Below are positions 9,780 to 32,033 of a DNA stretch of 64,000 nucleotides, piece after piece (position 1 is the first letter of the stretch; every line of letters begins with the position of its first letter). The translations under genes and the position numbers were made by a program. Origin of the DNA: Dongia sedimenti (GTDB lineage Bacteria > Pseudomonadota > Alphaproteobacteria > Dongiales > Dongiaceae); the NCBI GenBank assembly GCA_030715195.1, contig JAUYVI010000003.1:276960-340959 (forward strand), read 5' to 3'. Below the pieces are notes generated by a model. It was not told the origin of the DNA and ran no database searches. It was given only the letters and a program-made list of their open reading frames with translations.

Positions 9780-9785
9780 CCGACG

Positions 9786-16301: not shown

Positions 16302-17051
16302 CTAGACGCTGCCCTCGGCGCCCATCAGCTGCCGCCTGGCGTAATGCAGGTGGCTGGTCACCATCGCGACCGCGCCTTCGACGTCGCGCGAGGCGATCGC
16401 CTCGGCGAGCGCGCGGTGCTGGCGGTTGTAATCGGCGATGCGCTGCGGGGTGAGGATCTTGTCGCGCATGGCGGCCCACTGGTCATGGGCGCGGATCTCG
16501 TTCACCCGGCGGTAGATCCAGAGCATCAGCGGGTTGTGCGAGGCCTCGGCGATGCGGATGTGAAACTGGGTGTCCCATTCGGTGAAGCGGGTGGCATCGT
16601 TGCCGGCGGCCTCGGCCAGGTCGCAGGCCTCGAACAGCTTCTCGAGGTCCTTGGCCGAAGCGTTCAGCACCGCGAGCCGCGTCATATAGGGCTCGATCGC
16701 GAGGCGCGCTTCGATCAGCTCGACCGGCGAGGTGATCTCGGCGATATCGTCGGTCTCGCCGGGCTGGCGGTAGGAGACGAAGGTGCCGCTGCCGATCCGG
16801 CGCGCCACCAGCTTGTCGGTCTCGAGTCGGTCGAGCGCCAGACGCACCGTGGTGCGCGAGGCGTTGAACGCCTCGGCCAATTGGCGCTCGGCCGGCAGCT
16901 TCTGGCCGAATTTGTAGGTGCCTTCGACGATCGCCTGGCGCAATTGGTCGGCAATCCAGGCGGAGCCGCGCGCCGCATCGACCGGGACCATCATGGGACC
17001 GGGTTCCGTCAGCGTCGCAGTGTCCGAGGCTTCTGCACCAATCCGAGCCAA
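16302..17051 (-). CDS. FadR-subfamily GntR regulator
   Basis: A 249-residue regulator with an N-terminal winged helix (IADQLRQAIVEGTYKFGQKL, then AEAFNASRTTVRLALDRLE) and an all-helical FCD effector domain (EARLAIEPYMTRLAV, FHIRIAEASHNPLM, and HRALAEAIASRDVEGA near the end), with the usual metal/ligand His residues. Such regulators sense carboxylates or amino acids. It is divergent from the flavoprotein-glutamine synthetase-mgs genes across 187 bp and is the best candidate for their regulator. The start may lie 20 residues further in, at MMVPVDAARG. Confidence 0.88.
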   Translation of the reverse strand: MARIGAEASDTATLTEPGPMMVPVDAARGSAWIADQLRQAIVEGTYKFGQKLPAERQLAEAFNASRTTVRLALDRLETDKLVARRIGSGTFVSYRQPGETDDIAEITSPVELIEARLAIEPYMTRLAVLNASAKDLEKLFEACDLAEAAGNDATRFTEWDTQFHIRIAEASHNPLMLWIYRRVNEIRAHDQWAAMRDKILTPQRIADYNRQHRALAEAIASRDVEGAVAMVTSHLHYARRQLMGAEGSV

Positions 17052-17238
17052 TTCAATACCTTTGCAAAAAATAGGTTGGCAAATGGGCCTCGCCTATGCT
17101 GAGATTATGGGCGCGCCGAACCTTGCCGGTCAACTCGCACTGCGTGAAAACGGGGCGTGGTGAGCAGGGCACCGGATGGGGAAGCGCGCCTGCTAGAGCT
17201 GTACCAGTCATTCGACCTGCCTCGGAGTTGACTCGGCC

Positions 17239-18579
17239 ATGGCGCTTCCCGCGCACGTAAAATTCGTCGTCATCGGTGCCGGCATTCATGGGCTGAGCTC
17301 GGCCTGGCACCTCGCTGAAAATCTCCGCAAGTCCGGCAAGGGCAGCGGCAAGGACGTGATCGTCATCGACAAGGGCGGGATCGGCGCCGGCGCTTCCGGC
17401 ATCGCCTGCGGGGTGGTGCGCAACAACTACTTCCAGCCGGCCATGCGCCGGCTGATGGCGCACAGCGTTTCGGTCTGGGAGACGGATCCCGAAGCCTTCT
17501 CCTATCACCCGGTCGGCTACATGCAGATCAGCCCCGAGGTGATGCACCAGGACGTGGCCTCGATCTATGCCCAGCAGAAGGAGATCGGCTACACCTCCGA
17601 TTTCATCGAGGGCGAGAAGGACTGCATGAAATACATGCAGGGCCTGTTCAGCGACTGGCAGGCCAAGGGCATCACCTCGGTCCTGCATGAGAAGAAGGGC
17701 GGCTACGCCAACAACACCGCCTCGCTCTATGGCCTCGCCAAGAAGGCGGAGGCGGAGGGCGTGCGGATCGCGACCGGCATCAAGGTCACCGGCTTCAAGC
17801 GCGACGGCAAGGGCGCCATCACCGCGGTCGAGACCGACAAGGGCGCCATCCAGTGCGACCAGGTGATCGTCGGCGTCGGCCCCTGGGTCCGCTCGATCTG
17901 GCATATGCTGGACCTGCCCGATGCGATCTCGATCAAGGGCAAGGACGGCAAGGTCCACGACAACGTGCCGATGTGGGTCTACTGGTCCCTGCAGGAAGGC
18001 ACGCTCGGCGTCGATCCCGACTACCAGAAGACCAATGACGGCAAGATGCCGCCGGTGATCCATGTCGATACCGACGCGCCGCTCTATTCCGACGACGACA
18101 AGTCGCTGATCACCGACAAGCTCTGGGGCATCTACTACAAGCCGGATTTCCATTTCGGCGGCATCCAGGGCGGCGCCATGCCGTTCAAGGTGAAGACGGC
18201 GATCGACAGCGTGGCGGTCGATCCCTATGGCACCGAGAGCCCCGATTTCATCGTCGGCGACGATTTCGCGCATATGTGGGTCTCGGCTTTGGCCTTCTGC
18301 CAGAAGCGCTTCGAGGGCCAGATGCCGAAATACAAGAAGGAGCCCTCGGGCGGCATCGGCTGCTTCACCGCGGATTCCTTTCCCGTGTTCGACCGGTTCT
18401 GCGAGAACGCCTATTTCATCGCCGACTCCAACCACGGCTACAAGATGATCGGCGTCGGCAAGCTGGTCGCGGACGATATCTGCGGCCTGGGCGACGAGAT
18501 CCTGCGGCCGTTCCGCTTCTCGCGCTTCGCCGAAGGCAAGCTGCATCCGACATCCAATTCACCCTTCCCCTGGAGCTGA
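17239..18579 (+). CDS. FAD-dependent oxidoreductase, DAO/sarcosine-oxidase-beta type
   Basis: A 446-residue flavoprotein of the DadA/glycine-oxidase family. The dinucleotide-binding fold is at residues 10-25 (VVIGAGIHGLSSAWHL), followed by GIGAGASGIACGVVRNNY and a C-terminal FAD-contact stretch (FIADSNHGYKMIGVGKLVA). It should oxidise a secondary or primary amine of an amino acid. It is a distant paralogue of the mgdA product encoded 7 kb downstream, and lies 118 nt ahead of the glutamine-synthetase-type gene in the same direction. Whether it oxidises N-methylglutamate, sarcosine or another amine cannot be told. Confidence 0.85.
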   Translation: MALPAHVKFVVIGAGIHGLSSAWHLAENLRKSGKGSGKDVIVIDKGGIGAGASGIACGVVRNNYFQPAMRRLMAHSVSVWETDPEAFSYHPVGYMQISPEVMHQDVASIYAQQKEIGYTSDFIEGEKDCMKYMQGLFSDWQAKGITSVLHEKKGGYANNTASLYGLAKKAEAEGVRIATGIKVTGFKRDGKGAITAVETDKGAIQCDQVIVGVGPWVRSIWHMLDLPDAISIKGKDGKVHDNVPMWVYWSLQEGTLGVDPDYQKTNDGKMPPVIHVDTDAPLYSDDDKSLITDKLWGIYYKPDFHFGGIQGGAMPFKVKTAIDSVAVDPYGTESPDFIVGDDFAHMWVSALAFCQKRFEGQMPKYKKEPSGGIGCFTADSFPVFDRFCENAYFIADSNHGYKMIGVGKLVADDICGLGDEILRPFRFSRFAEGKLHPTSNSPFPWS

Positions 18580-18697
18580 CCGAGACGAAACAGAAGAGAC
18601 CCAGAGGAGGGCGTACACCGAGTTCTGCGGCGGGATTCCGCCGATACAGGGAGGCGGGGCTTCAACGGGCCCGCCGATAAAAAACGGGAGAACTCCG

Positions 18698-20164
18698 ATG
18701 ACTGACCTCGAGGCACATGTATCCGCGAAGGGCCGCAAAGAGCTCGTCAAACAAGTCCGCGCCAAGATCAACGAACTCGACATCAAATACATCTACTACC
18801 AGTTCGTCTCGGTGACCGGCCGCATCGTCGGCAAGGGCATCCCCGCCGATCACTGGGAAGCGATCGCCGAAAAGGGCTTCCAGCTGGTCTACGGCTCGAC
18901 CGCGAACCTGTTCACCGACCGCCACAAGCGCTATATCGGCTACGGTCCGGAGGCCTCCGAGCTGGTCGGCATTCCCGATCCCGAGACCTTCGTGCAGTTG
19001 CCCTGGGACAAGCGCGTCGCGCGGGTGTTCTGCACCTGCTTCCGGAATCGCGAGGAGCGGAAGAACCCCGGCGGCCATCTGACCTCGGATTGCCGTGGCA
19101 ACCTGCGCATCCTGCACAACGAGTTCCAGAAGAAGCACAAGGGCCTGTCGCTGCGCCATGGCTGCGAGCCGGAGATGATGTGGCTGAAGAAGGGCGCCGA
19201 CGGACTGCCCGACGGCGGATTCTCCAAGCCGAACTGCTATCACATCGACCAGTTCGAGAAGCTGCGCCCGGTCTTCATGCGGGTGATCGAATACGCCAAT
19301 GCCATGGGTCTCGACATGATCCAGGGCGATCATGAGGACGCGCCGGGCCAGCTCGAGTTGAACTTCATGTTCGACGATTGCCTGCGCACGGCGGATCGCC
19401 TCACCACCTACCGGCAGATCTGCGCCCAGGTGGCGCGCGAGTTCGACCTGATCGCCTGCTTCATGCCGAAGCCGTTCATGGGCGTCTCGGCCTCCGGCTG
19501 CCACCACAACCTCTCGCTCTGGCGCGGCGGCGAAGACGTGGTCAACGACCTGCACAACAAGCCGCTGCCGGGCATGAAGGACGTCTTCTCCTACCGCAAG
19601 GGCGGCGAGAACACCTTCATGCCGCTCAAAGGCCAGGCGAAGCCCGGCCCGATCGGCCTCCACTGCATCGGCGGGGTGATCAAGCATCTCGGCGCCTTGA
19701 CCGCGCTCGGTTCCTCGACGGTGAACTCCTATCGCCGGCTGTGGGATACGGGCTTCTGGGCGCCGGTCTTCGCCGATTGGGGCTACCAGAACCGCACCTG
19801 CGCGCTGCGCATCTCCGCGCCGGGCCGCTTCGAATACCGTTCGGTCGATGCCGCGGTGAACCCGTATCTCATGGCGGGCGCGCTGCTGAAGGCGTTCGAC
19901 GACGGCATCACCTCGAAGCTCGATCCCGGCGAGCCGGAAGAGCGCAACATCTACGAGGCGATGTCGGCCGGCAAGAAGGTGAAGAAGCTGCCGATGTCGC
20001 TCGGTGAATCGCTCGATCACCTGGCCGCCGATGAGGTGATCAAGGAAGCCTTGCCGGACGAGATGTACCGGGTGTTCAGCCACTACAAGCGCGACGAGTG
20101 GGAGCGCTTCATGGCCACCGTGACGCCCTGGGATCTCGAGACCTATTGGGACTGCCTGCCGTAA
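18698..20164 (+). CDS. gmaS: Glutamine-synthetase-family ligase, candidate gamma-glutamylmethylamide synthetase
   Basis: A 488-residue GS-fold enzyme. Active-site blocks are HGCEPEMMW (154-162; ATP/metal Glu), HEDAPGQLELNF (212-223), GCHHNLSLW (267-275; the His-Asn pair) and APGRFEYRSVDAAVNPYL (374-391). It therefore should ligate an amine to the gamma-carboxyl of glutamate with ATP. It is immediately followed by mgsABC and then mgdABCD; in that setting the enzyme is normally gamma-glutamylmethylamide synthetase, first step of methylamine assimilation. It is longer than the roughly 440-residue type III GlnT/GmaS proteins I know of, so methylamine specificity is inference; ordinary glutamine synthesis or another amine are alternatives. 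Confidence 0.7.
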   Translation: MTDLEAHVSAKGRKELVKQVRAKINELDIKYIYYQFVSVTGRIVGKGIPADHWEAIAEKGFQLVYGSTANLFTDRHKRYIGYGPEASELVGIPDPETFVQLPWDKRVARVFCTCFRNREERKNPGGHLTSDCRGNLRILHNEFQKKHKGLSLRHGCEPEMMWLKKGADGLPDGGFSKPNCYHIDQFEKLRPVFMRVIEYANAMGLDMIQGDHEDAPGQLELNFMFDDCLRTADRLTTYRQICAQVAREFDLIACFMPKPFMGVSASGCHHNLSLWRGGEDVVNDLHNKPLPGMKDVFSYRKGGENTFMPLKGQAKPGPIGLHCIGGVIKHLGALTALGSSTVNSYRRLWDTGFWAPVFADWGYQNRTCALRISAPGRFEYRSVDAAVNPYLMAGALLKAFDDGITSKLDPGEPEERNIYEAMSAGKKVKKLPMSLGESLDHLAADEVIKEALPDEMYRVFSHYKRDEWERFMATVTPWDLETYWDCLP

Positions 20165-20195
20165 GGATGAGTGCGACGATGCAGGCGGTGACTCT

Positions 20196-20273
20196 TACCC
20201 CCACCCTGACCCTCCCCCGATTCGGGGGAGGGCCGCGGACGAATGTCCGCATTCGCGGACGGCGGTGGGGGTA
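20196..20273. repeat. Palindromic intergenic repeat
   Basis: Outer arms TACCCCCA (20196-20203) and TGGGGGTA (20266-20273) enclose an inner hairpin CCCTCCCCCGA/TTCGGGGGAGGG (20210-20231) and a GTCCGC/GCGGAC pair. It separates the glutamine-synthetase-type gene from mgsA and resembles the repeats at 16142 and 26081. Confidence 0.65.
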
Positions 20274-20311
20274 CGAAACCCCGCTCAGCCAACACTGAAA
20301 GGAGCTTCGCC

Positions 20312-21247
20312 ATGTGCGGAATTGCGGGATTGATTCACCGCGGCAAGACCGGCGAGATCGGCAAGGAAATGACGGCGATGCTGCAGAGCCTGAAGCATCG
20401 CGGGCCGGATTCGACCGGCTATGCGCTTTACGGCTCGCCGAAGGGCAACGCGCTGATCATGCGCTTCAAGGCCGCCGAGCAGGAGGAAATGAAGCACGGC
20501 TTCCACATCCATGACCAGGTCAAGGAGCGGAAGGTCGAGGTCGAGAAGCGGCTGAAGGAGCTCGGCGCCACCATCGTCTCCGAGGAAGACGCGACCGAAT
20601 ACGCCTACCGCTACGTCATCGATTTCGGCGGCGACAAACGCAAGCTCGCCAACTATATCGAGGACATCGAGGGCGTGGAGATCCTGTCGCTCGGCTACGG
20701 CCTGGAGCTGATCAAGGACCTCGGCGACGCGGCCACCGTCACCGACCAGTATCACTTGAAGGGCTTCAAGGGCAGCCACGCGATCGGCCATACCCGCATG
20801 GCGACGGAATCCGATGTCGATATCCGCTCGGCGCATCCTTATTGGGCCTATCCGTTCGCCGACGTCTCGGTCGTGCACAACGGCCAGCTCACCAACTATT
20901 GGGGCGGAAGGCGGGCGCTCGAGCGCAAGGGTCATCGCTTCATGTCGAACTGCGATTCCGAGCTGATCGCCGTCTATCTGGCCGACAAGATGCAGCAGGG
21001 CGCGGAGCTGAAGGATGCGATGACCGATTCCATCGACGAACTCGACGGCGTGTTCACCTACGTGGTGGCGACCGCCGACAGCCTCGGCATGGCCAAGGAC
21101 GTGATGGCCGCGAAGCCGATGGTGCTCTACGAGAGCGACGATCTCGTGGCACTCGCGTCCGAGGAAGTCGCGATCCGCAGCATCTTCCCGAAAGAGATCG
21201 ACACCTTCGACCCCTATGAGGGCGAAGTGCGGGTCTGGAAGCGATAA
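20312..21247 (+). CDS. mgsA: N-methylglutamate synthase subunit A (GlxB-like class II glutamine amidotransferase)
   Basis: A 311-residue class II glutamine amidotransferase domain standing alone. The ATG at 20312 places the catalytic Cys at position 2 (MCGIAGLIHRGKTG), as this family requires, and AAAGGAG is a good ribosome site; an earlier ATG at 20243 would bury the nucleophile. Further family blocks are LKHRGPDSTGYA, GHTRMATESDVDI, VVHNGQLTNYW and SNCDSELIAVYLAD. It hydrolyses a gamma-glutamyl amide, here presumably gamma-glutamylmethylamide, and channels the amine to the MgsC subunit. Homologous to GlxB of rhizobia and to the N-terminal domain of glutamate synthase. Confidence 0.85.
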   Translation: MCGIAGLIHRGKTGEIGKEMTAMLQSLKHRGPDSTGYALYGSPKGNALIMRFKAAEQEEMKHGFHIHDQVKERKVEVEKRLKELGATIVSEEDATEYAYRYVIDFGGDKRKLANYIEDIEGVEILSLGYGLELIKDLGDAATVTDQYHLKGFKGSHAIGHTRMATESDVDIRSAHPYWAYPFADVSVVHNGQLTNYWGGRRALERKGHRFMSNCDSELIAVYLADKMQQGAELKDAMTDSIDELDGVFTYVVATADSLGMAKDVMAAKPMVLYESDDLVALASEEVAIRSIFPKEIDTFDPYEGEVRVWKR

Positions 21248-21269
21248 CGAGAGAGAACGGAAACCTGCC

Positions 21270-22106
21270 ATGGCGCTTCGCACCAAATCGCATGACATGG
21301 GGATGCACACCGAGCGTCTCTCGGGCCGCACCCAGCAGCGCTTCTTCGAGCCGGACGAGGAAGAGAATTTCACCTATCCGGGCGCGTTCGAGGTCGATTT
21401 CAACAAGCGCGCCGAGTTCGACGCGGCCAAGCTGACGCCGACCGAGATCAACCACAAGATCCGCGAGCTGCTGTCCAAGGGCAACGGCACGATCGTGATG
21501 AAGAACCCCGGCGCCAAGCACGGCGTCGCGGTCGGCATCCTGAACAAGCTGAACCTGATCATCGAGGGCAGCCTCGGCTATTTCGGTTGTGGGTTGATCG
21601 ATGGGCCGAACATCCGGATCAAGGGCCGGGTGGGCTGGTCCTGCGCCGAGAACATGCTGGCCGGCACCGTGATCATCGAGAAGAACGCGGGCTCGACCTT
21701 CGGCGCCGCGATCCGCGGCGGGGATCTGGTCTGCATGGGCGATGTCGGCGCCCGCATGGGCATCGACATGAAGGGCGGCACGATCATCGTCGGCGGCCGG
21801 GCCGGCGCCTTCTGCGGCTTCATGATGCAGCGCGGCCGGATGGTGATCCTGGGCGATGCCGGCAAGAATCTCGGCGATTCCATGTATGACGGCACGATCT
21901 ATGTCGGCGGCAAGATCGAGGATCTCGGGGTCGATGCGGTGCCGGGCGAAATGACGGAACTCGACTGTCAGTGGCTGGAGCGGAAGTTGAAACTCTACGG
22001 CCTGAAGGCGCCGAACGGGGTCAAGAACATGACCAAGATCGTCGCCGGGCGGCAGCTCTGGAACTACGACAATCTCGAGCCCGCCGAGAAGAAGCTCATT
22101 CTGTGA
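21270..22106 (+). CDS. mgsB: N-methylglutamate synthase subunit B (GlxC-like, GltB C-terminal domain)
   Basis: A 278-residue protein made of the right-handed beta-helix (GXGXG) domain found at the C-terminus of glutamate synthase and in formylmethanofuran dehydrogenase subunit C. Regular glycine-rich turns run from about residue 75 to 215 (GYFGCGLIDGPNIRIKGRVG, FGAAIRGGDLVCMGDVGARM, GKNLGDSMYDGTIYVGG). The domain is structural and links the amidotransferase and FMN subunits. The ATG at 21270 lies 22 nt after mgsA. Confidence 0.85.
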   Translation: MALRTKSHDMGMHTERLSGRTQQRFFEPDEEENFTYPGAFEVDFNKRAEFDAAKLTPTEINHKIRELLSKGNGTIVMKNPGAKHGVAVGILNKLNLIIEGSLGYFGCGLIDGPNIRIKGRVGWSCAENMLAGTVIIEKNAGSTFGAAIRGGDLVCMGDVGARMGIDMKGGTIIVGGRAGAFCGFMMQRGRMVILGDAGKNLGDSMYDGTIYVGGKIEDLGVDAVPGEMTELDCQWLERKLKLYGLKAPNGVKNMTKIVAGRQLWNYDNLEPAEKKLIL

Positions 22107-22129
22107 CCGGGGATCGAAAGGAAAGCATC

Positions 22130-23590
22130 ATGGCAAAATCGAAGAAGTCCCCGGCAAAGAAGAGCAGCAAGCTCGCCAAATCCAAGGCCGCGGTGAAGCT
22201 GATCAAGACCGCGCCGAAGCCCGCCGGAAAACCGGCGCCGCAGAAGAACAAGAAGCCGCTGAGCCGCGACACCCATCGCCTGGGCAACAGCTTCATGTTC
22301 CCGCCTTCGGTGATCGACGACATCCACATCAAGTCGGAGCTCGGCCGCTACCGGATGCGCGGCTTCTCGCTGTTCAAGAAGATCCCGAGCTGGGACGACC
22401 TCACCTTCCTGCCGGGCACCTTGACCCGCTTCGTGATCGAGGGTTATCGCGAAAAATGCCTGACCAAGACGGTGATCGGCCCGAAGTCGAAGCGTCCGCT
22501 GGTGCTCGACATCCCGGTCTACATCACCGGCATGAGCTTCGGCGCGCTCTCCTTCGAGGCCAAGATCGCGCTCGCCCGCGGCGCCACCATGGCCGGCACG
22601 GCGACCTGCTCCGGCGAAGGCGGCATGATTCCCGATGAGCGCCGCTATAGCTCCAAGTGGTTCTACCAGTGCATCCAGTCGCGCTATGGCTTCAACCCGC
22701 ACCATCTGCAATTGGCCGATGCCTGCGAGTTCTTCATCGGCCAGGGCTGCAAGGTCGGCTTGGGCGGCCATTTGATGGGCCAGAAGGTGACCGACCAGGT
22801 CGCGGAAATGCGCTCGCTCCCCGCCGGCATCGACCAGCGCTCGCCGGCGCGCCATCCGGACTGGCTCGGCCCCGACGATCTCGCCCTCAAGATCAACGAG
22901 GTGCGCGAGGCGACCGACGGGCAGATTCCGATCCAGCTGAAGCTCGGCGCCGCGCGCGTCTATGACGATGTCCGCATGGCCGCCAAGACTGGGCCGGATT
23001 CGATCTATATCGACGGCATGGAAGGCGGCACCGGCGCCGGCCCGCATGTGGCGACCGAAGAGACCGGCGTCCCCGGCATCGCGGCGATCCGCCAGGCCCG
23101 CAAGGCGCTGGATGACGTGGGCAAGACAGGCGAGATCAGCCTGGTCTATGCCGGCGGCATCCGCAACGGCGGCGACGTGGCGAAGGCGCTGGCGCTCGGC
23201 GCCGACGCGGTCGCGATCGGCCACTCGGCCTTGATGGCCTTGAACTGCAACAAGGACATCCCGGAAGCCGATTTCCCCAGCGAGATCGGCTGCGAGGCGG
23301 GTTACTGCTACCACTGCCACACCGGCCGCTGCCCGGTCGGCGTGGCGACCCAGGATCCGAAGCTGCGCGCGCGGCTGGATCCCGACGAGGCGGCCGAGCG
23401 GGTCTACAACTTCCTGCACTGCCTCACCATCGAGGCGCAGATGATGGCCCGCGCCTGCGGCAAGACCAACATCCACTCGCTGGAGCCGGAAGACCTGGCC
23501 GCACTGACCATGGAAGCCTCGGCGCTTGCCCAGGTGCCGCTGGCCGGTTCCCAGCACACCGTCGGCCGGCCCGACATGACCCGGTACTAG
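22130..23590 (+). CDS. mgsC: N-methylglutamate synthase subunit C (GlxD-like FMN glutamate synthase domain)
   Basis: A 486-residue protein with the FMN-binding barrel of glutamate synthase (TGMSFGALSFEAKIALARGA, TCSGEGGM, LKLGAARV, YIDGMEGGTGAGP) and a Cys-rich iron-sulfur segment CYHCHTGRCPVGVATQ. It joins the amine released by MgsA to 2-oxoglutarate to give N-methylglutamate. Unusual is an N-terminal extension of about 45 residues, very rich in Lys, Ala, Pro and Ser (PAKK-type motifs), ahead of the conserved DTHRLGNSFMFPPSV. The ATG at 22130 follows AAAGGAAAG; a later start would remove the basic tail, but no ATG is available there before the conserved region. Confidence 0.86.
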   Translation: MAKSKKSPAKKSSKLAKSKAAVKLIKTAPKPAGKPAPQKNKKPLSRDTHRLGNSFMFPPSVIDDIHIKSELGRYRMRGFSLFKKIPSWDDLTFLPGTLTRFVIEGYREKCLTKTVIGPKSKRPLVLDIPVYITGMSFGALSFEAKIALARGATMAGTATCSGEGGMIPDERRYSSKWFYQCIQSRYGFNPHHLQLADACEFFIGQGCKVGLGGHLMGQKVTDQVAEMRSLPAGIDQRSPARHPDWLGPDDLALKINEVREATDGQIPIQLKLGAARVYDDVRMAAKTGPDSIYIDGMEGGTGAGPHVATEETGVPGIAAIRQARKALDDVGKTGEISLVYAGGIRNGGDVAKALALGADAVAIGHSALMALNCNKDIPEADFPSEIGCEAGYCYHCHTGRCPVGVATQDPKLRARLDPDEAAERVYNFLHCLTIEAQMMARACGKTNIHSLEPEDLAALTMEASALAQVPLAGSQHTVGRPDMTRY

Positions 23591-23601
23591 AGGAGAGCGT
23601 C

Positions 23602-24036
23602 ATGGCTAAACCAATCGGGGCAAAACCGACCGCGCCGAAGGGCGGCAAGCCCAAGGAAGACGTCAACAAGTTCCTGAAGAGCCCCTCCGGGCTCGACAGC
23701 GCCCGCGAGAAGGAGATCGGCCAGCACATCGGCTATCGCTACGATGTGAACCTGGTGCCGGACTACACGCGGCTGACGCCCTTCCTGAAGAAGTACCTGG
23801 AGATCATGGGCTGGGACGACCTCAACTGGCTGGAGGACGTCCATATGGGTTACGAGGAAGGCCGGGCCGCGGTGTTCGACCGCAACATCAACGGCTGGGT
23901 GACGGTGCCGAAGAACATCAAGCTGCCGGACAACCAGCAGGACCGCGACATGATCGCCCGCGAACTGCTGATCAAGTTCCAGATGTCGAAGCGCCACCCG
24001 ATGGTGGATCTGAACAAGGCGTATCGGAAGTTCTGA
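23602..24036 (+). CDS. Uncharacterised companion of the mgs operon
   Basis: A 144-residue soluble protein that I do not recognise. It starts with a Lys/Pro/Gly-rich tail (MAKPIGAKPTAPKGGKPKED), like the basic tail on MgsC immediately upstream, then a compact acidic-aromatic domain (YTRLTPFLKKYLEIMGWDDL, GYEEGRAAVFDRNINGWVTV) and a helical end. It begins 11 nt after mgsC and is followed by a rho-independent terminator, so it is the last gene of the mgs transcript and probably an accessory subunit or assembly factor of the synthase. Confidence 0.8.
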   Translation: MAKPIGAKPTAPKGGKPKEDVNKFLKSPSGLDSAREKEIGQHIGYRYDVNLVPDYTRLTPFLKKYLEIMGWDDLNWLEDVHMGYEEGRAAVFDRNINGWVTVPKNIKLPDNQQDRDMIARELLIKFQMSKRHPMVDLNKAYRKF

Positions 24037-24049
24037 TTGGCTCGAGGTG

Positions 24050-24087
24050 GCCCTCGCTCTGCGACGCAGCGGAGCGAGGGCTCTTTT
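24050..24087 (+). terminator. Rho-independent terminator of the mgs operon
   Basis: A 10-bp GC-rich stem GCCCTCGCTC (24050-24059) and GAGCGAGGGC (24072-24081), followed by CTTTTTC. It sits 14 nt after the stop of the small mgs companion gene. The convergent gene ends at 24088. Confidence 0.85.
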
Positions 24088-24675
24088 TCAGGCGGCCTCG
24101 ACCTGCGCGCGGCGCCAGTCGGGCTCGAAGCAGAGGACGCGGACGCCGGCCGGCATGTTCGGATTGAACAGGCGGTTGTGCCAATAGGTGGATTGATAGA
24201 GCGGATGATGCTCCGGCAATTCCAGCACCGAGACCGGCAATTGGAAACGCTGGCCGTATTCGGCGAAATTGAGCTGGACGCGGCCGTGGTTCAGCATGGC
24301 GTCGCTGATCGGCGCGGCCGGACCGAACAGGGCGGTCAGCCGCTCGTCGAACTCGGCGGATTTCTGGAAATAGCCGGCGGCCATGTGCTCGATGGCCTTC
24401 TCCCAGCGTTCGACCGGATCCTGGGTCTTCAGCACCTGGTGCCGGAACAGCGAGGTTGTGTGCTCGGGCTCGCTCTTGTGAATGACGATCATGATGCCGG
24501 GATGCAGCTCGGCCCCGTCCTCGGTGTGGACCGCCGGCCGCATGCCGGGCGAAGGCCGACCGGCGCCGTCGCGCATCGCCATCTGCCGGATGCGGCATTG
24601 CCAATGCAGGAAATCATCCCGCACCTTCTCGGCGGCGGGACCCATGCGGACGATGTTGCTGGCGCGGCATGCCAT
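24088..24675 (-). CDS. Uncharacterised protein between the mgs and mgd genes
   Basis: A 195-residue soluble protein, family not recognised. It has no signal peptide or membrane helix, several Trp and His residues (FLHWQCRIRQMAMRDG, MIVIHKSEPEHTTSLFRHQV, YWHNRLFNPNMPAGVRVLCF) and an even domain-like composition. The ATG at 24675 (MACRASN) is preferred because the longer open frame up to 24804 would overlap the divergent mgdA start. It is transcribed against its neighbours, between the two halves of the methylamine pathway, with 128 nt to mgdA. Conservation in other mgs/mgd clusters would show whether it belongs to the pathway. Confidence 0.7.
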   Translation of the reverse strand: MACRASNIVRMGPAAEKVRDDFLHWQCRIRQMAMRDGAGRPSPGMRPAVHTEDGAELHPGIMIVIHKSEPEHTTSLFRHQVLKTQDPVERWEKAIEHMAAGYFQKSAEFDERLTALFGPAAPISDAMLNHGRVQLNFAEYGQRFQLPVSVLELPEHHPLYQSTYWHNRLFNPNMPAGVRVLCFEPDWRRAQVEAA

Positions 24676-24803
24676 GGCGGGAAGGGTGCAGCGAAGCCGG
24701 CGCTTTGGCAAGGCTGCGGTTGGTGAATGATGGGAAAGTTTGTTGAACCGAGGGAAAACGGCGGTTATCGTCCGGCAACCTCCGAATCCGGGATCTGAAG
24801 CCA

Positions 24804-26060
24804 ATGTTGCCGGCCTTTTTACCGACTGGGTTGCTGAAATACGGTCTCCGCAAGAAGTATCCGGCGTTCCGCTACATCCCCGGCCCGAGCGAACTCAAGT
24901 CCCACTATGACGTGGTCATCATCGGCGGCGGCGGCCATGCCCTGGCCTGCGCCTACTACCTCGCCCGGAATCACGGCATCACCAATGTCTGCGTGCTGGA
25001 GCGCGGCTATCTCGCCGGCGGCAACACCGCGCGCAACACCGCGATCATCCGCTCGAACTACCTGACGCCCGAAGGCGTGAAGTTCTACGAGGAGTCCTTG
25101 CGGCTGTACCGCGACCTCTCCCAGGACCTCGATTTCAACATCCTCTATTCCGAGCGCGGGCATTTCACCCTGGCCCATACCGATGCCGCGATGCGCACCA
25201 GCCGCTGGCGCGCCGAGGTGAACAAGCATCTCGGCGTCGATTCCGAGCTCATCTATCCGGACGACATCGCAAAACTCTGCCCGTCGCTCAACATGAGCGA
25301 GGACGTGCGCTACCCGATCCTGGGTGCGCTCTATCATCCGCCGGGATCGATCGCCCGGCACGACGCCGTGGCCTGGGGCTATGCGGCGCGGGCCAGCCAG
25401 ATGGGGGTCGAGATCCACCAACAGACCGGCGTCACCGGCCTGGTCATCGAAGGCGGCAAGGTCAAGGGCGTCGAGACGACCCGCGGCCGGATCGGGGCGG
25501 GGCAGGTGATGCAGGCGGTCGCCGGCATGACCTCGGTCGTTGCGGACATGGCCGGCTTCAAGCTGCCGATCCGGACCATCCCCCTGCAGGCCTGCGTCTC
25601 GGTGCCGCTGAAGCCGTTCCTCGACCAGATCATCGTCTCCGGCAGCCTGCACGTCTATGTCTCGCAATCCTCGCGCGGCGAACTGGTGATGGGCGGCTCG
25701 ACCGATCCCTACGGCCTCTATTCGACGCGCTCGACCCTCGACTTCAAGGAAGGCCTGCTCGGCCACATGCTGGAGCTGCTGCCGATGCTGGGCGAGGTCA
25801 AGATCCTGCGGCAATGGGCCGGCATGGCCGACATGACGCCGGACTTCTCGCCGGTGATGGGGCTCACGCCGGTCGAGAATTACTACATCGACAGCGGCTG
25901 GGGGACCTGGGGCTTCAAGGCGACGCCGGTCTGCGGCAAGACCATGGCCTACACGATCGCCAACAACAAACCGCACGCGCTGATCAAGCCGTTCTCCTAT
26001 GAGCGCTTCCTCACCTACAGCCAGGTGGGTGAAAAAGGCGCGGCTTCGGTGGGACATTAG
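24804..26060 (+). CDS. mgdA: N-methylglutamate dehydrogenase subunit A (SoxB-like)
   Basis: A 418-residue flavoprotein of the heterotetrameric sarcosine oxidase beta family. After about 35 residues it shows VVIIGGGGHALACAYYLARN, then LAGGNTARNTAIIRSNYLTP, both highly characteristic of SoxB, and a C-terminal DMTPDFSPVMGLTPV and WGTWGFKATPVCG. It binds FAD and carries the amine-oxidation site. In the company of mgsABC the substrate should be N-methylglutamate rather than sarcosine. The ribosome site is weak. The next gene is separated by a palindromic repeat. Confidence 0.86.
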   Translation: MLPAFLPTGLLKYGLRKKYPAFRYIPGPSELKSHYDVVIIGGGGHALACAYYLARNHGITNVCVLERGYLAGGNTARNTAIIRSNYLTPEGVKFYEESLRLYRDLSQDLDFNILYSERGHFTLAHTDAAMRTSRWRAEVNKHLGVDSELIYPDDIAKLCPSLNMSEDVRYPILGALYHPPGSIARHDAVAWGYAARASQMGVEIHQQTGVTGLVIEGGKVKGVETTRGRIGAGQVMQAVAGMTSVVADMAGFKLPIRTIPLQACVSVPLKPFLDQIIVSGSLHVYVSQSSRGELVMGGSTDPYGLYSTRSTLDFKEGLLGHMLELLPMLGEVKILRQWAGMADMTPDFSPVMGLTPVENYYIDSGWGTWGFKATPVCGKTMAYTIANNKPHALIKPFSYERFLTYSQVGEKGAASVGH

Positions 26061-26080
26061 ATGGCATCGAGTTTGTGTCC

Positions 26081-26182
26081 CCCCTCACCCCAACCCCCCT
26101 CCCACGAGGGGAGAGGGGCTTTGGACCGAGCGTCAGCAACAGCGTCCCCTCTCCCCTTGTGGGAGAGGGACAGGGTGAGGGG
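26081..26182. repeat. Palindromic intergenic repeat between mgdA and mgdB
   Basis: CCCCTCACCC (26081-26090) and GGGTGAGGGG (26173-26182) bracket inner CCCCTCTCCCC/GGGGAGAGGGG pairs. It is related to the 16142-16281 element. It is inserted within an otherwise compact operon and may set the mgdA to mgdBCD transcript ratio. Confidence 0.7.
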
Positions 26183-26224
26183 TGGCCCCGCAATGACTCT
26201 CTCCAAGCGAAACGCGGTGCGTCC

Positions 26225-26527
26225 ATGAAGGTAATGAACTGTCCCCTGAATGGTCCGCGCAACATCAGCGAGTTCGTCTGGGGCGGCGAGGTGAAGCCGA
26301 TGCCCGACGAAACCAAGCTCAGCGATCGCGAATGGGCAGAATACGTGTTCCTCGAGAACAACACGGCCGGTGTCGTGCGCGAATGGTGGTGCCACGTGCC
26401 CACCTCGTTCTGGTTCATTGCCGAGCGCAACACCGTGACCGATGAGATCGTGAAGACCTATCCGGCGTCCGAAGTGTTCAAGGCGCGCGTCGATTTCGCT
26501 CCCAAGTCCGAGAGAGCCAAGCCATGA
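26225..26527 (+). CDS. mgdB: N-methylglutamate dehydrogenase subunit B (SoxD-like)
   Basis: A 100-residue protein of the sarcosine oxidase delta family (CPLNGPRNISEFVWGGEV, REWAEYVF, REWWCHVPTSFWFIAERNT). In the well-studied SoxD proteins four residues bind zinc (two Cys near the N-terminus, then a His and a Cys). Here Cys6 and His57 remain, but the second N-terminal Cys is Asn9 and the last Cys is replaced in the PTSF segment, so the classical site is incomplete. The ATG at 26225 is the natural start; upstream in-frame codons lie in the repeat. It overlaps mgdC by 4 nt. Confidence 0.85.
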   Translation: MKVMNCPLNGPRNISEFVWGGEVKPMPDETKLSDREWAEYVFLENNTAGVVREWWCHVPTSFWFIAERNTVTDEIVKTYPASEVFKARVDFAPKSERAKP

Positions 26528-29451
26528 ACGCGCCGGTGTCCTACGGCGGCATGAACCGCTTGCCCAACCGCGGCCAGTTCATCGACCGCTCGAAGCCGGT
26601 GACCTTCAGCTTCGAAGGCGCCTTCGTCGAGGGCTATGAAGGCGACACCATCGCCAGTGCACTCGCCGCGAACGGCCAGTGGATCGTCTCGCGCAGCTTC
26701 AAGTATCACCGGCCCCGCGGCGTCCTCACCATGGTCGGCCAGGACGCGAACACCCTGGTCCAGGTGGCCGAGGAACCGAACTGCCTCGCCGACAAGCGCA
26801 AGATCGCGCCCGGTCTGGTGGTCGAGGGGCAGAATTACTTCGGTTCCTTCGAATCCGATTCCGGCCGCTTCGTCGAATGGGTCTCGAAATTCCTGCCCGT
26901 GGGCTTCTATTACAAGACCTTCCATGAAAAGCGCGCGTCCTGGAAGTTCTGGGAACCGATTGTCCGCAAGATGGCGGGCCTCGGCAAGATCGACCCGCAT
27001 GCCCATCACGGCTACTACGACAAGCAGTATCTCTTCGCCGATGTCGCGGTGATCGGCGGCGGTCCGGCCGGCATGGCGGCAGCGATCGAAGCGGCCAAGG
27101 CCGGCGGCGAAGTCATCCTGATCGATGAGAACCCGAAGCTCGGCGGCTGCCTCAACTACGCGCGCTTCGACGAGAGCGGCGAAGCGGCCTGCAAGGCGGA
27201 AGGCGACCTGCTGAACGCGGTCCAAGCGGCAAGCAACATCCGGGTGATGACCGATGCAGTGGTCAGCGGCTTGTTCGCCGACAACTGGATTCCGGTCATT
27301 CGCGGCAACCGCTTCTACAAGCTGCGCGCGAAAGCGGTTGTGGTGGCGACCGGCTCGATCGAGCAGCCGGCGGTGTTCCGCAACAATGACCTTCCCGGCA
27401 TCATGCTGGGCTCGGCGGCGCAGCGTCTGATCCATTTCTATGGGGTGCGGCCCGGCAAGAAGGCGGTGATCCTGACCGCCAATGACGACGGCTATGCCCA
27501 GGCGATCGACCTGCTGAAGATCGGCGCTGAAGTCGCCGCGGTGGTCGATTTGCGCGAGGTACCGCCGGTGACGCCGCTCTCATTTGCGGTGCGCAAGGCG
27601 AGCATCCCGGTTCTGGCCGGCCATGCCATCCAGGAGGCCTATCACCACAATAAGGAACATGTGGTCGGCGTGGCCGTGGCACCGATCGTGGCGGAAGGCC
27701 AACTCGGCGATCCCACGGCAAGCTACGACTGCGATTTGGTCTGCATGTCGGTCGGTTACAGCCCGGCGGCGCATCTGTTGCTGCAGGCCGGGGCCAAGTT
27801 CGCTTACAGCACCGAAACCGCGATGTTCCATCCCGCTCAGATCCCCGCGGGTCTCTACGCCGCAGGTTCGGTCGGTGGCGTGTTCGACCTCGACCGGGTG
27901 CGGGCCGATGGCGCGCGGGCCGGCTGGGCGGCGGCGAAGCAGGCCGGCCTCTCGGTCGGCGCGGAGCCTGTGACCCCCGGCGACACCCAGGACCGGAACC
28001 AGACGCATCCCTGGCCGATCTTCCCGCATGCCAAGGGCGGCGAGTTCGTCGATTTCGATGAGGACCTGAAATATGCGGACCTGATCAACGGAATTGCCGA
28101 CGGCTTCGACAATGTCGAGCTGCTGAAGCGTTATTCGACGGTCGGGATGGGCCCGTCCCAGGGCAAGCATTCCGCCGTCGCCGCTGTGCGCATCGTCGCG
28201 CGCGAGACCGGCCGCGACCTCGCGACACTGACGGTGACGACGCAGCGTCCACCGTACACGCCGGAGAAGTTCGGCCATCTCGCCGGACGCATCTTCGATC
28301 CCGAGCGGCGCACGGCGATGCATCACCGTCATCTGGAGCTCGGCGCGCAGATGATGCCGGCGGGCATCTGGTGGCGTCCGGCCTATTATGGGCCGAAGGC
28401 GGAGCGGGAGAAGGCGATCCGCGAGGAGGTGCTGGCGGTTCGCAACAATGTCGGGCTGATCGATGTCTCCACCCTCGGCGGGCTCGACGTGCGCGGGCCG
28501 GACGCGGCCGAGTTCCTGAACCGCATGTACACCTTCACCTACGCGAAGCTCGCCATCGGCAAGTCGCGCTATGTGCTGATGACCGACCAGGCCGGTGTCA
28601 TCACCGATGACGGCGTCGCCTGCCGCTTCTCGGAAGAGCATTTCTACGTCACCGCGACCACCAGTGGCGTCGATGCGGTCTATCGCTCGATGCTGCAATG
28701 GAACGCGCAATGGCGGCTCGATGTCGATGTCGCGAATGTGACGGCCGCCTATGCCGGCGTGAACATCGCCGGGCCGAAATCCCGGGCCGTGCTGCAGAAG
28801 GTCTGCACCGATATCGACCTCTCGTCGGAGGCTTTCCCCTATCTCGGGGTGCGGATGGGCACGGTCGCCGGTATTCCGGCGCGGCTGCTGCGGGTCGGCT
28901 TCGTGGGCGAGCTCGGCTACGAGATTCATGTGCCCTACGGCTTTGGCGAGGCCTTGTGGGATGCATTGATGGAGGCGGGGGCTGGCGACAACATCCGCCC
29001 GTTTGGGGTGGAAGCGCAGCGCGTGCTGCGTCTGGAAAAGGGCCATATCATCGTCAGCCAGGACACCGACGGTCTCACCAATGTCTGGGAGGCCGACATG
29101 CCCTGGGCGCTGGCCAAGACCAAACCGTTCTTCGTCGGCGGCCGCTCGACCCAGATCATGGCCAAGATGCCCCTCATTCGGAAACTGGTCGGCTTCACCC
29201 TGGACGATCCGTCGCTGCCTTGTCCGGAAGAATGCCATCTGGTGATCCGGCAGGGCGAGATCGTCGGCCGCGTGACCTCGGCGGTGCGATCGCCCAACCT
29301 CGGCAAGGTCGTCGGTCTCGCCTACGTGCATCCGGATGACGCCGAGCCGGATGCCAAGATCGCGATCAAGGTCGATGGCGGGCGGATGATCGAAGCGAGG
29401 GTCGTGGCCTTGCCGTTCTATGATTCCGCCGCCAAGCGGCAGGAGATGTGA
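26524..29451 (+). CDS. mgdC: N-methylglutamate dehydrogenase subunit C (SoxA-like)
   Basis: A 975-residue protein of the sarcosine oxidase alpha family. It has an N-terminal ferredoxin-like domain (SFEGAFVEGYEGDTIASALA, FKYHRPRG), a nucleotide-binding domain with GGGPAGMAAA at 178-187 and a second VVVATGSIEQPAVFR site, and a C-terminal GcvT-like folate-binding domain from about residue 600 (NNVGLIDVSTLGGLDVRGPD, GELGYEIHVP, RLEKGHIIVSQDTDG). It transfers electrons and passes the oxidised methyl carbon to tetrahydrofolate as methylene-THF. Length is normal for the family. Confidence 0.9.
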   Translation: MNAPVSYGGMNRLPNRGQFIDRSKPVTFSFEGAFVEGYEGDTIASALAANGQWIVSRSFKYHRPRGVLTMVGQDANTLVQVAEEPNCLADKRKIAPGLVVEGQNYFGSFESDSGRFVEWVSKFLPVGFYYKTFHEKRASWKFWEPIVRKMAGLGKIDPHAHHGYYDKQYLFADVAVIGGGPAGMAAAIEAAKAGGEVILIDENPKLGGCLNYARFDESGEAACKAEGDLLNAVQAASNIRVMTDAVVSGLFADNWIPVIRGNRFYKLRAKAVVVATGSIEQPAVFRNNDLPGIMLGSAAQRLIHFYGVRPGKKAVILTANDDGYAQAIDLLKIGAEVAAVVDLREVPPVTPLSFAVRKASIPVLAGHAIQEAYHHNKEHVVGVAVAPIVAEGQLGDPTASYDCDLVCMSVGYSPAAHLLLQAGAKFAYSTETAMFHPAQIPAGLYAAGSVGGVFDLDRVRADGARAGWAAAKQAGLSVGAEPVTPGDTQDRNQTHPWPIFPHAKGGEFVDFDEDLKYADLINGIADGFDNVELLKRYSTVGMGPSQGKHSAVAAVRIVARETGRDLATLTVTTQRPPYTPEKFGHLAGRIFDPERRTAMHHRHLELGAQMMPAGIWWRPAYYGPKAEREKAIREEVLAVRNNVGLIDVSTLGGLDVRGPDAAEFLNRMYTFTYAKLAIGKSRYVLMTDQAGVITDDGVACRFSEEHFYVTATTSGVDAVYRSMLQWNAQWRLDVDVANVTAAYAGVNIAGPKSRAVLQKVCTDIDLSSEAFPYLGVRMGTVAGIPARLLRVGFVGELGYEIHVPYGFGEALWDALMEAGAGDNIRPFGVEAQRVLRLEKGHIIVSQDTDGLTNVWEADMPWALAKTKPFFVGGRSTQIMAKMPLIRKLVGFTLDDPSLPCPEECHLVIRQGEIVGRVTSAVRSPNLGKVVGLAYVHPDDAEPDAKIAIKVDGGRMIEARVVALPFYDSAAKRQEM

Positions 29452-29462
29452 AGGAATAAACC

Positions 29463-30197
29463 ATGGGGGCCCTACCGAAAGTCTTCGCCCAGAACCAGCT
29501 GCGCCGCTCGCCGATCTATCGCCTGACCCAGGCCGCCGGCGCCTTCTGCGAGGTGATCAACAGCGGCGCCGTGCCGATGCATTACGGCAACTCGGATTCC
29601 GAGCTCGACCGGGCGCGGCGCATGGCGATCGCGGATCTCTCGGGTTTGCCGCGCACCGGGTTCAAGGGCACCGGCACGGTCGATTGGCTGGCCGGGCAGG
29701 GGCTCACGATCGGTCCCGACAGCAACATGGCCTATCGCCAGGACGGCGGTGCCTTGGCCGCCCGCCTGGCGCCGACCGAGATCTTCCTGATCGACGGGCT
29801 GGAGGCGACGGGGGCGCTGATCGACCGGCTGAACGGCGCCTGGAACTGGGGCACCGAGAAGCCGCGCAAGCTGATCGGCTATCCGATGCCGCGCCAGGAC
29901 AGCCATGCCTGGTTCATGATCACCGGCGATGCCGCCCCGGACATGTTCGCCAAGATCTGCGGCGTCGATCTGCGGCCGCACAAGTTCGCCCCCGGCCGGA
30001 TCGCCCAGACTTCGCTGGCCAAGATGAGCGGCATCGTCATTAGGGATGATCGGGGGGCGATTCCGGCTTTCCACCTCTTGGCGGACGTCGCTTCGGCGGA
30101 GTATCTCTGGGGCGCCGTCCTCGACGCCATGTCGGAGTTCGGCGGCGCGCCGGTGGGCCTGCAGGCCCTGCGCCGGTTGGGTGAGGTCCCCTCATAG
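29463..30197 (+). CDS. mgdD: N-methylglutamate dehydrogenase subunit D (SoxG-like)
   Basis: A 244-residue protein of the sarcosine oxidase gamma family, distantly related to the GcvT fold (FKGTGTVDWLAGQGLTIG, AWFMITGDAAPDMFAKICGVDL, AQTSLAKMSGIVIRDD). It completes the four-subunit enzyme. It starts 11 nt after mgdC with an AAGGAAT ribosome site. Confidence 0.86.
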   Translation: MGALPKVFAQNQLRRSPIYRLTQAAGAFCEVINSGAVPMHYGNSDSELDRARRMAIADLSGLPRTGFKGTGTVDWLAGQGLTIGPDSNMAYRQDGGALAARLAPTEIFLIDGLEATGALIDRLNGAWNWGTEKPRKLIGYPMPRQDSHAWFMITGDAAPDMFAKICGVDLRPHKFAPGRIAQTSLAKMSGIVIRDDRGAIPAFHLLADVASAEYLWGAVLDAMSEFGGAPVGLQALRRLGEVPS

Positions 30198-30353
30198 GCG
30201 GATGCCATGATGGAATGGGCCATGGTGGAAAAGCGACGGGAAACAGTCGCGGCCAGGCAAAAAAGGGTCATTAAACCCCACTAATCTCTCGGCAATTCAA
30301 TCGGCCGACCCGCCCCCAAATCGGCCCATCAGGGAAGTCAGGAGCGCATTCCA

Positions 30354-32033
30354 ATGAGCAAGAAAGTCGGCAGCGATATCGAGATCGCACGCCAGGCCAA
30401 GATGAAGCCGATCCGCGAAGTCGCGGGCAAGCTCAACATCGCCGAAGAACATCTGATCCCCTACGGCCATACCAAGGCCAAGGTGTCGATGGAGTTCGTG
30501 AAGTCGCTGAAGGGCAAGCCGGACGGCAAGCTGATCCTGGTGACCGCGATCAACCCGACCCCGGCCGGCGAAGGCAAGACGACGACCACCGTGGGCCTCG
30601 GCGACGGCCTCAACCGGATCGGCAAGAAGACCATCATCTGCCTGCGCGAGCCCTCGCTCGGGCCCTGTTTCGGCGTCAAGGGCGGCGCGGCCGGCGGCGG
30701 CTATGCCCAGGTCGTGCCGATGGAAGACATCAACCTTCACTTCACCGGCGACTTTCATGCGATTGGTACCGCGCATAACCTGCTCTCGGCGCTGATCGAC
30801 AACCACATTTACTGGGGCAACGAGCTCGGCTTCGACGCCCGCCGCATCCAGTGGCGCCGGGTCATGGACATGAACGACCGGGCCTTGCGCGCGATCACCA
30901 ACAGCCTCGGCGGCGTCGCCAACGGCTTTCCGCGCGAGGACGGCTTCGACATCACCGTCGCCTCGGAAGTCATGGCGATCTTCTGCCTCGCCACCGACAT
31001 TGCCGACCTCACCAAGCGGCTTGGCAACATCATCATCGGCTACACCCGCGAGAAGAAGCCGATTTATGCCCGCGACCTGAAGGCGGACGGTCCGATGACC
31101 GTGCTGCTGAAGGACGCGATCGCGCCGAACCTGGTGCAGACGCTGGAGAACAACCCGGCCTTCATCCACGGCGGCCCGTTCGCCAACATCGCGCATGGCT
31201 GCAACTCGGTGATCGCGACCACCACGGCGCTGAAGCTCGCCGACTACGTGGTGACCGAAGCCGGATTCGGCGCCGATCTCGGCGCCGAGAAGTTCTTCGA
31301 CATCAAATGCCGCAAGGCGGGGCTGAAGCCCGCCGCCGTGGTCATCGTCGGTACGATCCGCGCCCTGAAGATGCATGGCGGGGTCGCCAAGGAAGAGCTC
31401 GGCAAGGAGAATGTCGAGGCGGTGAAGAAGGGTGCCGCAAACCTCGCCCGCCATATCCAGAACGTGAAGAAGTTCGGCGTGCAGATCGTGGTCGCACTGA
31501 ACCGCTTCAGCGCGGACACCGACGCCGAGATCAAGGCGATCCGCGAACTGTGCAGCGGCCTCGGCGTCGATGCCTTCGAGTGCAACCATTGGGCTGAGGG
31601 CGGCGCCGGCACCGAGGACCTCGCCAAGGCCGTGGTGGCTCTCTGCGACAAGCCGAACAACTTCGCGCCGCTCTATCCGGACGAGATGCCGCTCTGGGAG
31701 AAAGTAAAGACCATCGCCACCAGCCTTTACGGCGCCCAGGACGTCATCGGCGACAAGGTGGTGCGCGATCGTTTCCACGAGTTCGAGAAGATGGGCTTCG
31801 GCAAGTACCCGGTCTGCATGGCGAAGACCCAGTACAGCTTCTCGACCGATCCGAACCTCAAGGGCGCACCCTCGAACCACGTGGTGCCGATCCGCGAGAT
31901 CCGCCTCTCGGCCGGGGCCGAGTTCATCGTCGTCATCTGCGGCGAAGTGATGACCATGCCCGGCCTGCCGCGCGTTCCCTCCGCGAATCACATCAAGCTG
32001 AACGAAAAGGGCGAAGTCGAGGGGTTGTTCTAG
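30354..32033 (+). CDS. fhs: Formate--tetrahydrofolate ligase
   Basis: A 559-residue FTHFS with the P-loop [15 protein letters not shown] near residues 64-78, [19 protein letters not shown] and an intact length for the family. It interconverts formate plus THF with 10-formyl-THF using ATP. Placed directly after mgdABCD, it handles the one-carbon units released by N-methylglutamate oxidation, either recovering ATP and formate or feeding formyl-THF to biosynthesis. Formate from the HutF-HutG route encoded downstream could also enter here. Ribosome site AGGAGC. No FolD or PurU gene is in the window. Confidence 0.95.

Follow-up and report, generated by a model that had tools for sequence, protein, structure and literature searches.

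The locus between positions 16302 and 32033 of a 64,000-nucleotide stretch of Dongia sedimenti DNA (contig JAUYVI010000003.1, positions 276,960 to 340,959 of the forward strand; the whole stretch is called the window here) raises the question of which amine it serves. The initial annotation had read it as an apparently complete N-methylglutamate pathway for methylamine, comprising gmaS, mgsABC and mgdABCD. Comparison with other genomes leads us to think it probable that the first of two units in the locus, DAO-GS-GlxB-GlxC-GlxD-HypA (GS denoting a ligase of the glutamine synthetase family), encodes an alternative route in which dimethylamine is converted to N-methylglutamate by way of gamma-glutamyl-dimethylamide and N,N-dimethylglutamate. 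By analogy, the first unit is best read as a putative parallel copy of the N-methylglutamate logic, joined to a second unit, SoxBDAG-FTHFS (FTHFS, formate-tetrahydrofolate ligase). What the comparison supports is the family identities, the distinct clades, the recurrent gene order, the association with Tdm, the near-exclusion of the family PF11927, and the presence of the unit beside a GmaS-type ligase; dimethylamine as the substrate, every intermediate, the order of the steps and what HypA and HypB contribute are what we infer from the genomes.

The genes that had been named are present about where they had been placed, each with family support (two of them without a Pfam match), and a FadR-type regulator does diverge from the front of the locus:

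16302 to 17051, minus strand: GntR/FCD (FadR-type) regulator (Pfam FCD 4e-27, GntR 2e-22), diverging from the operon
17239 to 18579, plus strand: DAO-family oxidase dependent on flavin adenine dinucleotide (Pfam DAO 2.5e-34), candidate N,N-dimethylglutamate demethylase
18698 to 20164, plus strand: GS-family ligase of 488 residues (TIGR03105 311 bits, cut-off 469.6), candidate gamma-glutamyl-dimethylamide synthetase
20312 to 21247, plus strand: GlxB-type class II amidotransferase subunit (GATase_6 1.8e-15), with N-terminal Cys (MCGIAG)
21270 to 22106, plus strand: GlxC-type GXGXG subunit (Pfam GXGXG 8e-17)
22130 to 23590, plus strand: GlxD-type subunit resembling flavin mononucleotide-dependent glutamate synthase (Glu_synthase 1.1e-89)
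23602 to 24036, plus strand: HypA, 144 residues, without a Pfam match, recurring in the unit
24049 to 24082, plus strand: terminator-like hairpin of 14 pairs, between HypA and HypB
24088 to 24675, minus strand: HypB, without a Pfam match, with a predicted split-barrel flavin- or haem-binding fold
24804 to 26060, plus strand: SoxB-type subunit, MgdA type (TIGR01373 492 bits, cut-off 529)
26095 to 26169, no strand assigned: palindromic repeat with 24-nucleotide arms, between soxB and soxD
26225 to 26527, plus strand: SoxD-type subunit, MgdB type (Pfam SoxD 1.5e-28)
26524 to 29451, plus strand: SoxA-type subunit with a folate-binding GcvT domain, MgdC type (TIGR01372 876 bits, cut-off 1164)
29463 to 30197, plus strand: SoxG-type subunit, MgdD type (TIGR01375 2.8e-6)
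30354 to 32033, plus strand: FTHFS (NF010030 935.8 bits, cut-off 652)

The locus had been described as running in one direction, which holds for the GS, GlxBCD, SoxBDAG and FTHFS genes and fails for HypB. Successive gaps from DAO through GS, GlxB, GlxC and GlxD to HypA measure 118, 147, 22, 23 and 11 bases, and are followed by 767 bases between HypA and SoxB that contain the hairpin and the opposed HypB gene. This gap, the hairpin at 24049-24082 and the orientation of HypB suggest that the locus comprises two transcription units. Terminator-like hairpins are not enriched in the window (10 found, 9.4 expected from shuffles), the stem at 24049-24082 being the longest of the ten. The FTHFS is the only PF01268 match in the 6.13 Mb genome (26 contigs). 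Palindromic repeats with similar arms (CCCTCTCCC type) occur at window positions 26095-26169 and 16153-16271.

Is the ligase GmaS? As a reference we used a cluster on an Acinetobacter plasmid (L114) that carries Tmm (816 bits, cut-off 675), a DmmA-family protein, a PF11927 protein, folD, SoxBDAG, ammonium transporters, glnT and glxBCD. On TIGR03105, the type III glutamate-ammonia ligase model, the window ligase falls short of the cut-off that is passed by the genome's other ligase (666 bits) and the Acinetobacter reference (679 bits); this model has no power to separate GmaS from other type III ligases, and the counts among 52 genomes given below are of that wider kind. Among solved chains the window ligase scored 199.6 bits with an archaeal glutamine synthetase, 191.7 with the glutamate-methylamine ligase 9qur and 179.2 with RhGmaS (7cql), and it is 28-30% identical to GmaS-type ligases. 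The second ligase, encoded elsewhere in the genome, reaches 638 bits to RhGmaS and is accompanied by its own GlxBCD genes as a GmaS-MgsABC-type set. In the ligase tree the window protein lies inside a 20-row clade (99/100) with Rhodococcus and Paracoccus plasmid relatives, with RhGmaS and its kin outside, and the cassette and cyanobacterial ligases form a 17-row subgroup (89/89) of this clade. No row was removed from the tree, in which six rows (own_L00x) are the longest open frame per locus; two of these, own_L002 and own_L007, sit on very long branches, are unusual in composition and may represent the wrong frame. The TIGR03105 shortfall, the solved-chain scores, the separate RhGmaS-like ligase and the tree position led us to reject the identification of this gene as gmaS.

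The substrate pocket, on the other hand, retains much of GmaS. All nine RhGmaS amine-pocket and catalytic residues (Lys30, Tyr147, Gln175, Asp177, Glu179, Glu186, Asn188, Trp300 and Arg312; roles as given in the available part of PMC7948447) are kept in the window ligase, where the ammonia-using GS 8s59 differs at six (Lys30 to Trp, Tyr147 to Phe, Gln175 to Ala, Asp177 to His, Asn188 to Asp and Trp300 to Glu). The GmaS catalytic residues Asp177, Glu186 and Arg312 are thus conserved, and the position of the ammonia-site Asp50 is Val. Other positions have changed relative to RhGmaS (Tyr174 to Ile, Ala48 to Val, Gly231 to Ala and His237 to Asn), and the window ligase lacks a loop of roughly five residues ahead of Trp300. 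The reported Km values of RhGmaS are about 16 mM for dimethylamine and 27 µM for methylamine (PMC7948447, available part). These features fit a ligase with an altered pocket that would act on some small amine rather than on ammonia.

Retention of these residues also bears on the proposal that this is the ordinary N-methylglutamate pathway, with GmaS as the ligase, MgsABC as GlxBCD and methylamine as the substrate. Its gene logic is identical, the pocket and catalytic residues of GmaS are largely kept, and MgdABCD-type genes adjoin the ligase unit. However, the ligase and GlxD fall in clades of their own and the genome holds the separate GmaS-MgsABC-type set, and we regard a methylamine pathway as unlikely here.

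The ligase clade is also found elsewhere. Cyanobacteria (L156/G445; L070, L096 and others) carry a ligase of the window type alone, near a PhyH-type dioxygenase, a gene resembling substrate-binding proteins and sometimes a GmaS-type ligase; this is a second context for the clade, without GlxBCD. More distant relatives (40-56%) on Paracoccus, Ruegeria and Rhodococcus plasmids (L115, L116 and L117) adjoin P450, ferredoxin, aldehyde dehydrogenase or PuuD-like genes, which suggests that these plasmid ligases may serve the breakdown of other amines.

Nor is the earlier identification of the synthase genes as mgsABC supported. The window GlxB, GlxC and GlxD are 35, 41 and 51% identical to reference MgsA, MgsB and MgsC (GlxC over 191 residues), and in the GlxD tree 19 cassette rows (96/90) stand apart from three MgsC-type rows (100/100). 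The MCGIAG N-terminus is present in 69 of the 73 members of the GlxB cluster, which includes non-cassette copies. A GlxD motif pattern that fitted just one row out of the six shown was not used. A third GlxD-type group of five rows (L054, L065, L066, L073 and L093) groups with neither the cassette rows nor the MgsC-type ones; each of these loci holds a further GlxBCD-type set, and four of the five GlxD-type frames are about 650 residues long.

How widely does the unit recur? A scan of genome contigs gave 516 stretches encoding ligase relatives, and the best 80 of the 516 (76-90% identity) were used; by record title these come from alpha- and gammaproteobacteria, SAR324, Acidobacteria, Cyanobacteria and others. 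Loci were picked by ligase similarity alone, and per-gene counts are limited to loci with enough flank. The gene-order comparison that the initial annotation had recommended revealed an order recurring beyond chance in non-cyanobacterial loci. Downstream of the ligase were found GlxB (60/63), GlxC (58/59), GlxD (52/52) and HypA (46/47), and upstream DAO (46/65) and a homologue of the GntR/FCD regulator (46/55). DAO, HypA and HypB had been set aside as additions to the textbook pathway, a description that does not suit HypA and DAO, which are recurrent members; HypB lies near the ligase in 22 of the 32 non-cyanobacterial loci with wide flank, SoxA and FTHFS in 9 each and FolD in 6. A sample of 398 genomes across the phylum contained the ligase at E 1e-100 in three, one of which (G386) is a 54% relative without the unit and was counted as lacking it.

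For co-occurrence we assembled 52 ligase-bearing genomes, 50 of them chosen from the 80 loci for longer contigs and taxon spread (including 3 of the 10 cyanobacteria), together with G000 and G008. A type-III/GmaS ligase scored over the cut-off in 41 of the 52, and the unit is therefore additional to a GmaS-type ligase rather than a replacement for it. Such coexistence, at times within the same cluster (L104, L138, L139, L146 and L148), also counts against methylamine as the substrate; the 11 ligase-bearing genomes with no type-III/GmaS ligase at E 1e-120 count in its favour.

Among solved chains, the DAO oxidase comes closest in sequence to sarcosine oxidase beta, L-amino acid deaminase and dimethylglycine oxidase/dehydrogenase. 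HypA has 58 invariant columns among 43 sequences; its predicted model has a confidence (pLDDT, predicted local distance difference test) of 75, and of the 195 hits that a fold search with it gave (E up to 10) none reached 0.001. The AlphaFold2 model of HypB (pLDDT 93, predicted TM-score 0.87) has PNPOx-like split barrels as its top Foldseek matches (best E 4.4e-4; TM 0.42 by query and 0.57 by target), from which HypB is predicted to resemble flavin- or haem-binding split-barrel proteins, with modest similarity. HypB was rejected as a haem-dependent demethylase subunit, having no PF11927 match; its relative in L104 has a single weak Pfam match, YycE-like, at E 0.031.

The HypB fold and the frequent GmaS-type ligase are consistent with a further explanation, in which the unit demethylates dimethylamine or gamma-glutamyl-dimethylamide to methylamine or gamma-glutamylmethylamide for GmaS and MgsABC, with HypB or DAO as the demethylase. 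This would leave no role for the dedicated GlxBCD, the most constant part of the unit, and 11 of the 52 genomes have no detected GmaS-type ligase to receive the product. We consider such a scheme quite unlikely.

Why, then, dimethylamine? The window's genome encodes Tmm (852 bits) and Tdm (1184 bits) in adjacent genes on another contig. The initial annotation had inferred that the organism can use methylamine as a nitrogen and perhaps a carbon source; use of methylated amines is supported by these two genes and the GmaS-MgsABC-type set. In L037, a Dongia-type locus, genes for a trimethylamine N-oxide (TMAO) permease (829 bits, cut-off 690) and for Tmm (855 bits, cut-off 675) come after the unit; L025 is arranged likewise, with Tdm further on. 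A SAR324 locus (L104) has Tdm (1218 bits, cut-off 1100) between the unit and a type-III/GmaS-type set, and the order in L138 is Tmm, Tdm, DAO, GS, GlxBCD, HypA, amt, GmaS. Tdm exceeds its curated cut-off in 31 of the 52 ligase-bearing genomes against 25 of the 398 in the phylum sample (31/52 vs 23/396 without the two shared genomes, Fisher 1e-19). In a class sample of 385 genomes, Tdm lies less than 20 kb from the ligase in 14 of the 27 genomes that have both. In two small genomes, G630 (L138) and G473 (L139-L140), each a single contig (1.2 and 1.4 Mb; local G+C content 34-37%), the unit lies no more than some 20 kb away from Tdm, Tmm and a GmaS-type ligase.

The distribution of PF11927, the family of the haem-demethylase-like protein in the reference Dmm cluster, was compared with that of the ligase. 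A profile search of the window's genome gave no PF11927 match, and among the 52 ligase-bearing genomes the family occurs in two, G398 and G445, the match in the latter, a cyanobacterium, being only a 26% relative of DmmC. In the phylum sample Tdm was found at E 1e-150 in 27 genomes, 25 of which have PF11927; the remaining two are precisely those that carry the unit. In the class sample Tdm was found at E 1e-200 in 34 genomes, of which 27 have the ligase at ≥71% identity (at least 71%; the count includes G507, with one in-frame TGA, and G757, cut by a contig end) and five have a strong PF11927 match; none has both (Fisher 7.5e-5). A strong match is one above 150 bits, a line set after the scores were known. 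Weak partial matches (51-59 bits) occur in G473, G678 and G749, two of which carry the ligase, and when these are counted too PF11927 is present in 2 of 27 genomes with the ligase and 6 of 7 without (Fisher 1.4e-4). Pooling the phylum and class samples alone gave 55 distinct Tdm-positive genomes; a strong PF11927 match is absent from all 27 that carry the ligase and present in 26 of the 28 that lack it (Fisher 1e-13). The 52-genome set overlaps the class sample (G000, G008, G400/G752 and G437/G590, by identical Tdm coordinates), and these two comparisons are not independent. A methylamine pathway leaves the near-exclusion of PF11927 unexplained.

Several observations weigh against dimethylamine as the substrate of the first unit. 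Genome G398 (locus L033) holds both the cassette and a full dmmDABC, and G747 in the class sample has Tdm with neither ligase nor PF11927. The Fisher values overstate independence because the genomes are related, five of the 27 ligase-bearing class-sample genomes being from the window's own genus. The comparison of dimethylamine enzymes was made on PF11927, a family broader than DmmC (the L118 member is only 27% identical), with no search for dimethylamine dehydrogenase. Tdm over the cut-off is lacking in 21 of the 52 ligase-bearing genomes, many of them drafts and some with partial matches, and close to the ligase Tdm is found in 6 and Tmm in 4 of the 32 wide-flank loci. Finally, none of the unit's other genes was found near the ligase in Cyanobacteria (GlxB 0/8), and the clade is therefore not bound to one pathway. 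These cyanobacterial copies, like the varied amines that the neighbours of the plasmid relatives point to, also accord with a different secondary or small amine as the unit's substrate, one released, for instance, in the degradation of TMAO, choline or betaine. The association with Tdm and the near-exclusion of PF11927 favour dimethylamine instead, and we hold another amine to be very unlikely.

What would become of any N-methylglutamate formed by the first unit? The window SoxB, SoxD, SoxA and SoxG are 58, 59, 54 and 34% identical to the L114 set (MgdA, MgdB, MgdC and MgdD), against at most 50, 43 and 39% in SoxB, SoxD and SoxA to the two sarcosine-oxidase-type sets of the same genome (50 and 47%, 43 and 37%, and 39 and 35%, respectively). 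All four window subunits lie below the cut-offs of the sarcosine oxidase families, as do reference SoxB, SoxD and SoxA; the reference SoxG had no family-model match at 1e-10. On TIGR01372 the window and reference SoxA reach 876 and 854 bits, below the cut-off of 1164 passed by the genome's two other SoxA proteins (1513 and 1214), and on TIGR01373 the two SoxB proteins reach 492 and 460 bits against a cut-off of 529. A set from the same genus (L151), 83, 76 and 71% identical in SoxB, SoxD and SoxA, lies inside a cluster with GmaS-MgsABC-type genes, so that MgdABCD-type sets are linked to such genes in both L114 and L151. Together the sub-cut-off scores and the higher identity to the L114 set lead us to reject a true sarcosine oxidase and support the assignment of SoxBDAG as an MgdABCD-type N-methylglutamate dehydrogenase, the part of the original pathway assignment that stands. 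A Rhizobium SoxBDAG locus (L113) has a different gene context.

The steps of the proposed route are drawn by analogy with the N-methylglutamate route. Dimethylamine produced by Tdm would enter the first unit (DAO-GS-GlxB-GlxC-GlxD-HypA, with HypB), where the GS-type ligase would convert it to gamma-glutamyl-dimethylamide at the expense of adenosine triphosphate (ATP). GlxB, with its N-terminal Cys kept, would cleave this amide and free dimethylamine within the complex, and GlxC and GlxD would form N,N-dimethylglutamate from it by reductive addition to 2-oxoglutarate. One methyl group may then be removed by the DAO oxidase, leaving N-methylglutamate, which SoxBDAG would convert to glutamate and methylene-tetrahydrofolate, the one-carbon unit being taken up by the products of the FTHFS and FolD-type genes.

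According to the accessible part of PMC5520151, Tdm yields dimethylamine, a TMAO breakdown product and a component of marine aerosol, and the next known enzyme is DmmABC; that 2017 study reported no dmmDABC in SAR11, noted that abundant marine gamma- and deltaproteobacteria lack it as well, and suggested a metabolic bottleneck. Many TMAO-degrading bacteria are without a known enzyme for the dimethylamine step, and a 2026 paper, as far as its available text goes, still names Dmm for it (further literature, in available part: PMC13390433, PMC5017803, PMC3160333). Among titles and abstract openings, covering few subscription journals and no bioRxiv preprints, no dimethylamine route via glutamyl-dimethylamide or dimethylglutamate was found. 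If our proposal is correct, the unit would fill the step described as a bottleneck in marine methylamine breakdown, and so supply a reaction thought missing across much of the ocean; a second, unrelated dimethylamine route, recurrent in alpha- and gammaproteobacteria, SAR324 and Acidobacteria, would revise the bottleneck view. The chances seem to us evenly balanced that an undescribed ATP-dependent dimethylamine pathway is the main partner of Tdm outside Dmm-bearing lineages, small streamlined genomes included. The 488-residue ligase together with HypA could serve as a marker for the unit.

One further observation concerns the surroundings of the locus. A 929-residue open reading frame at window positions 8124-10913 (minus strand), adjoining polyamine-type ABC transporter genes, has no NCBIfam match at 1e-20.

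Three known systems resemble parts of this locus. Heterotetrameric sarcosine oxidase SoxBDAG shares the subunit architecture and families of the window set, yet the four window subunits fall below its cut-offs and SoxA is only 39 and 35% identical to the passing sets of the same genome. The N-methylglutamate pathway (GmaS, MgsABC and MgdABCD) has the same combination of a ligase, a GlxBCD-type synthase, a SoxBDAG-type dehydrogenase and folate enzymes, and the window SoxBDAG is of the same kind; unlike that pathway, the window ligase and GlxBCD belong to separate clades, HypA and DAO recur in the unit, and units of this type coexist with a GmaS-type ligase (41/52) and are near-exclusive with PF11927. 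DmmDABC, as described in the available part of PMC5520151, acts at the step proposed here for the unit, the breakdown of dimethylamine after Tdm, but the window's genome lacks the PF11927 haem subunit, and ligation and amine transfer would take the place of monooxygenation.

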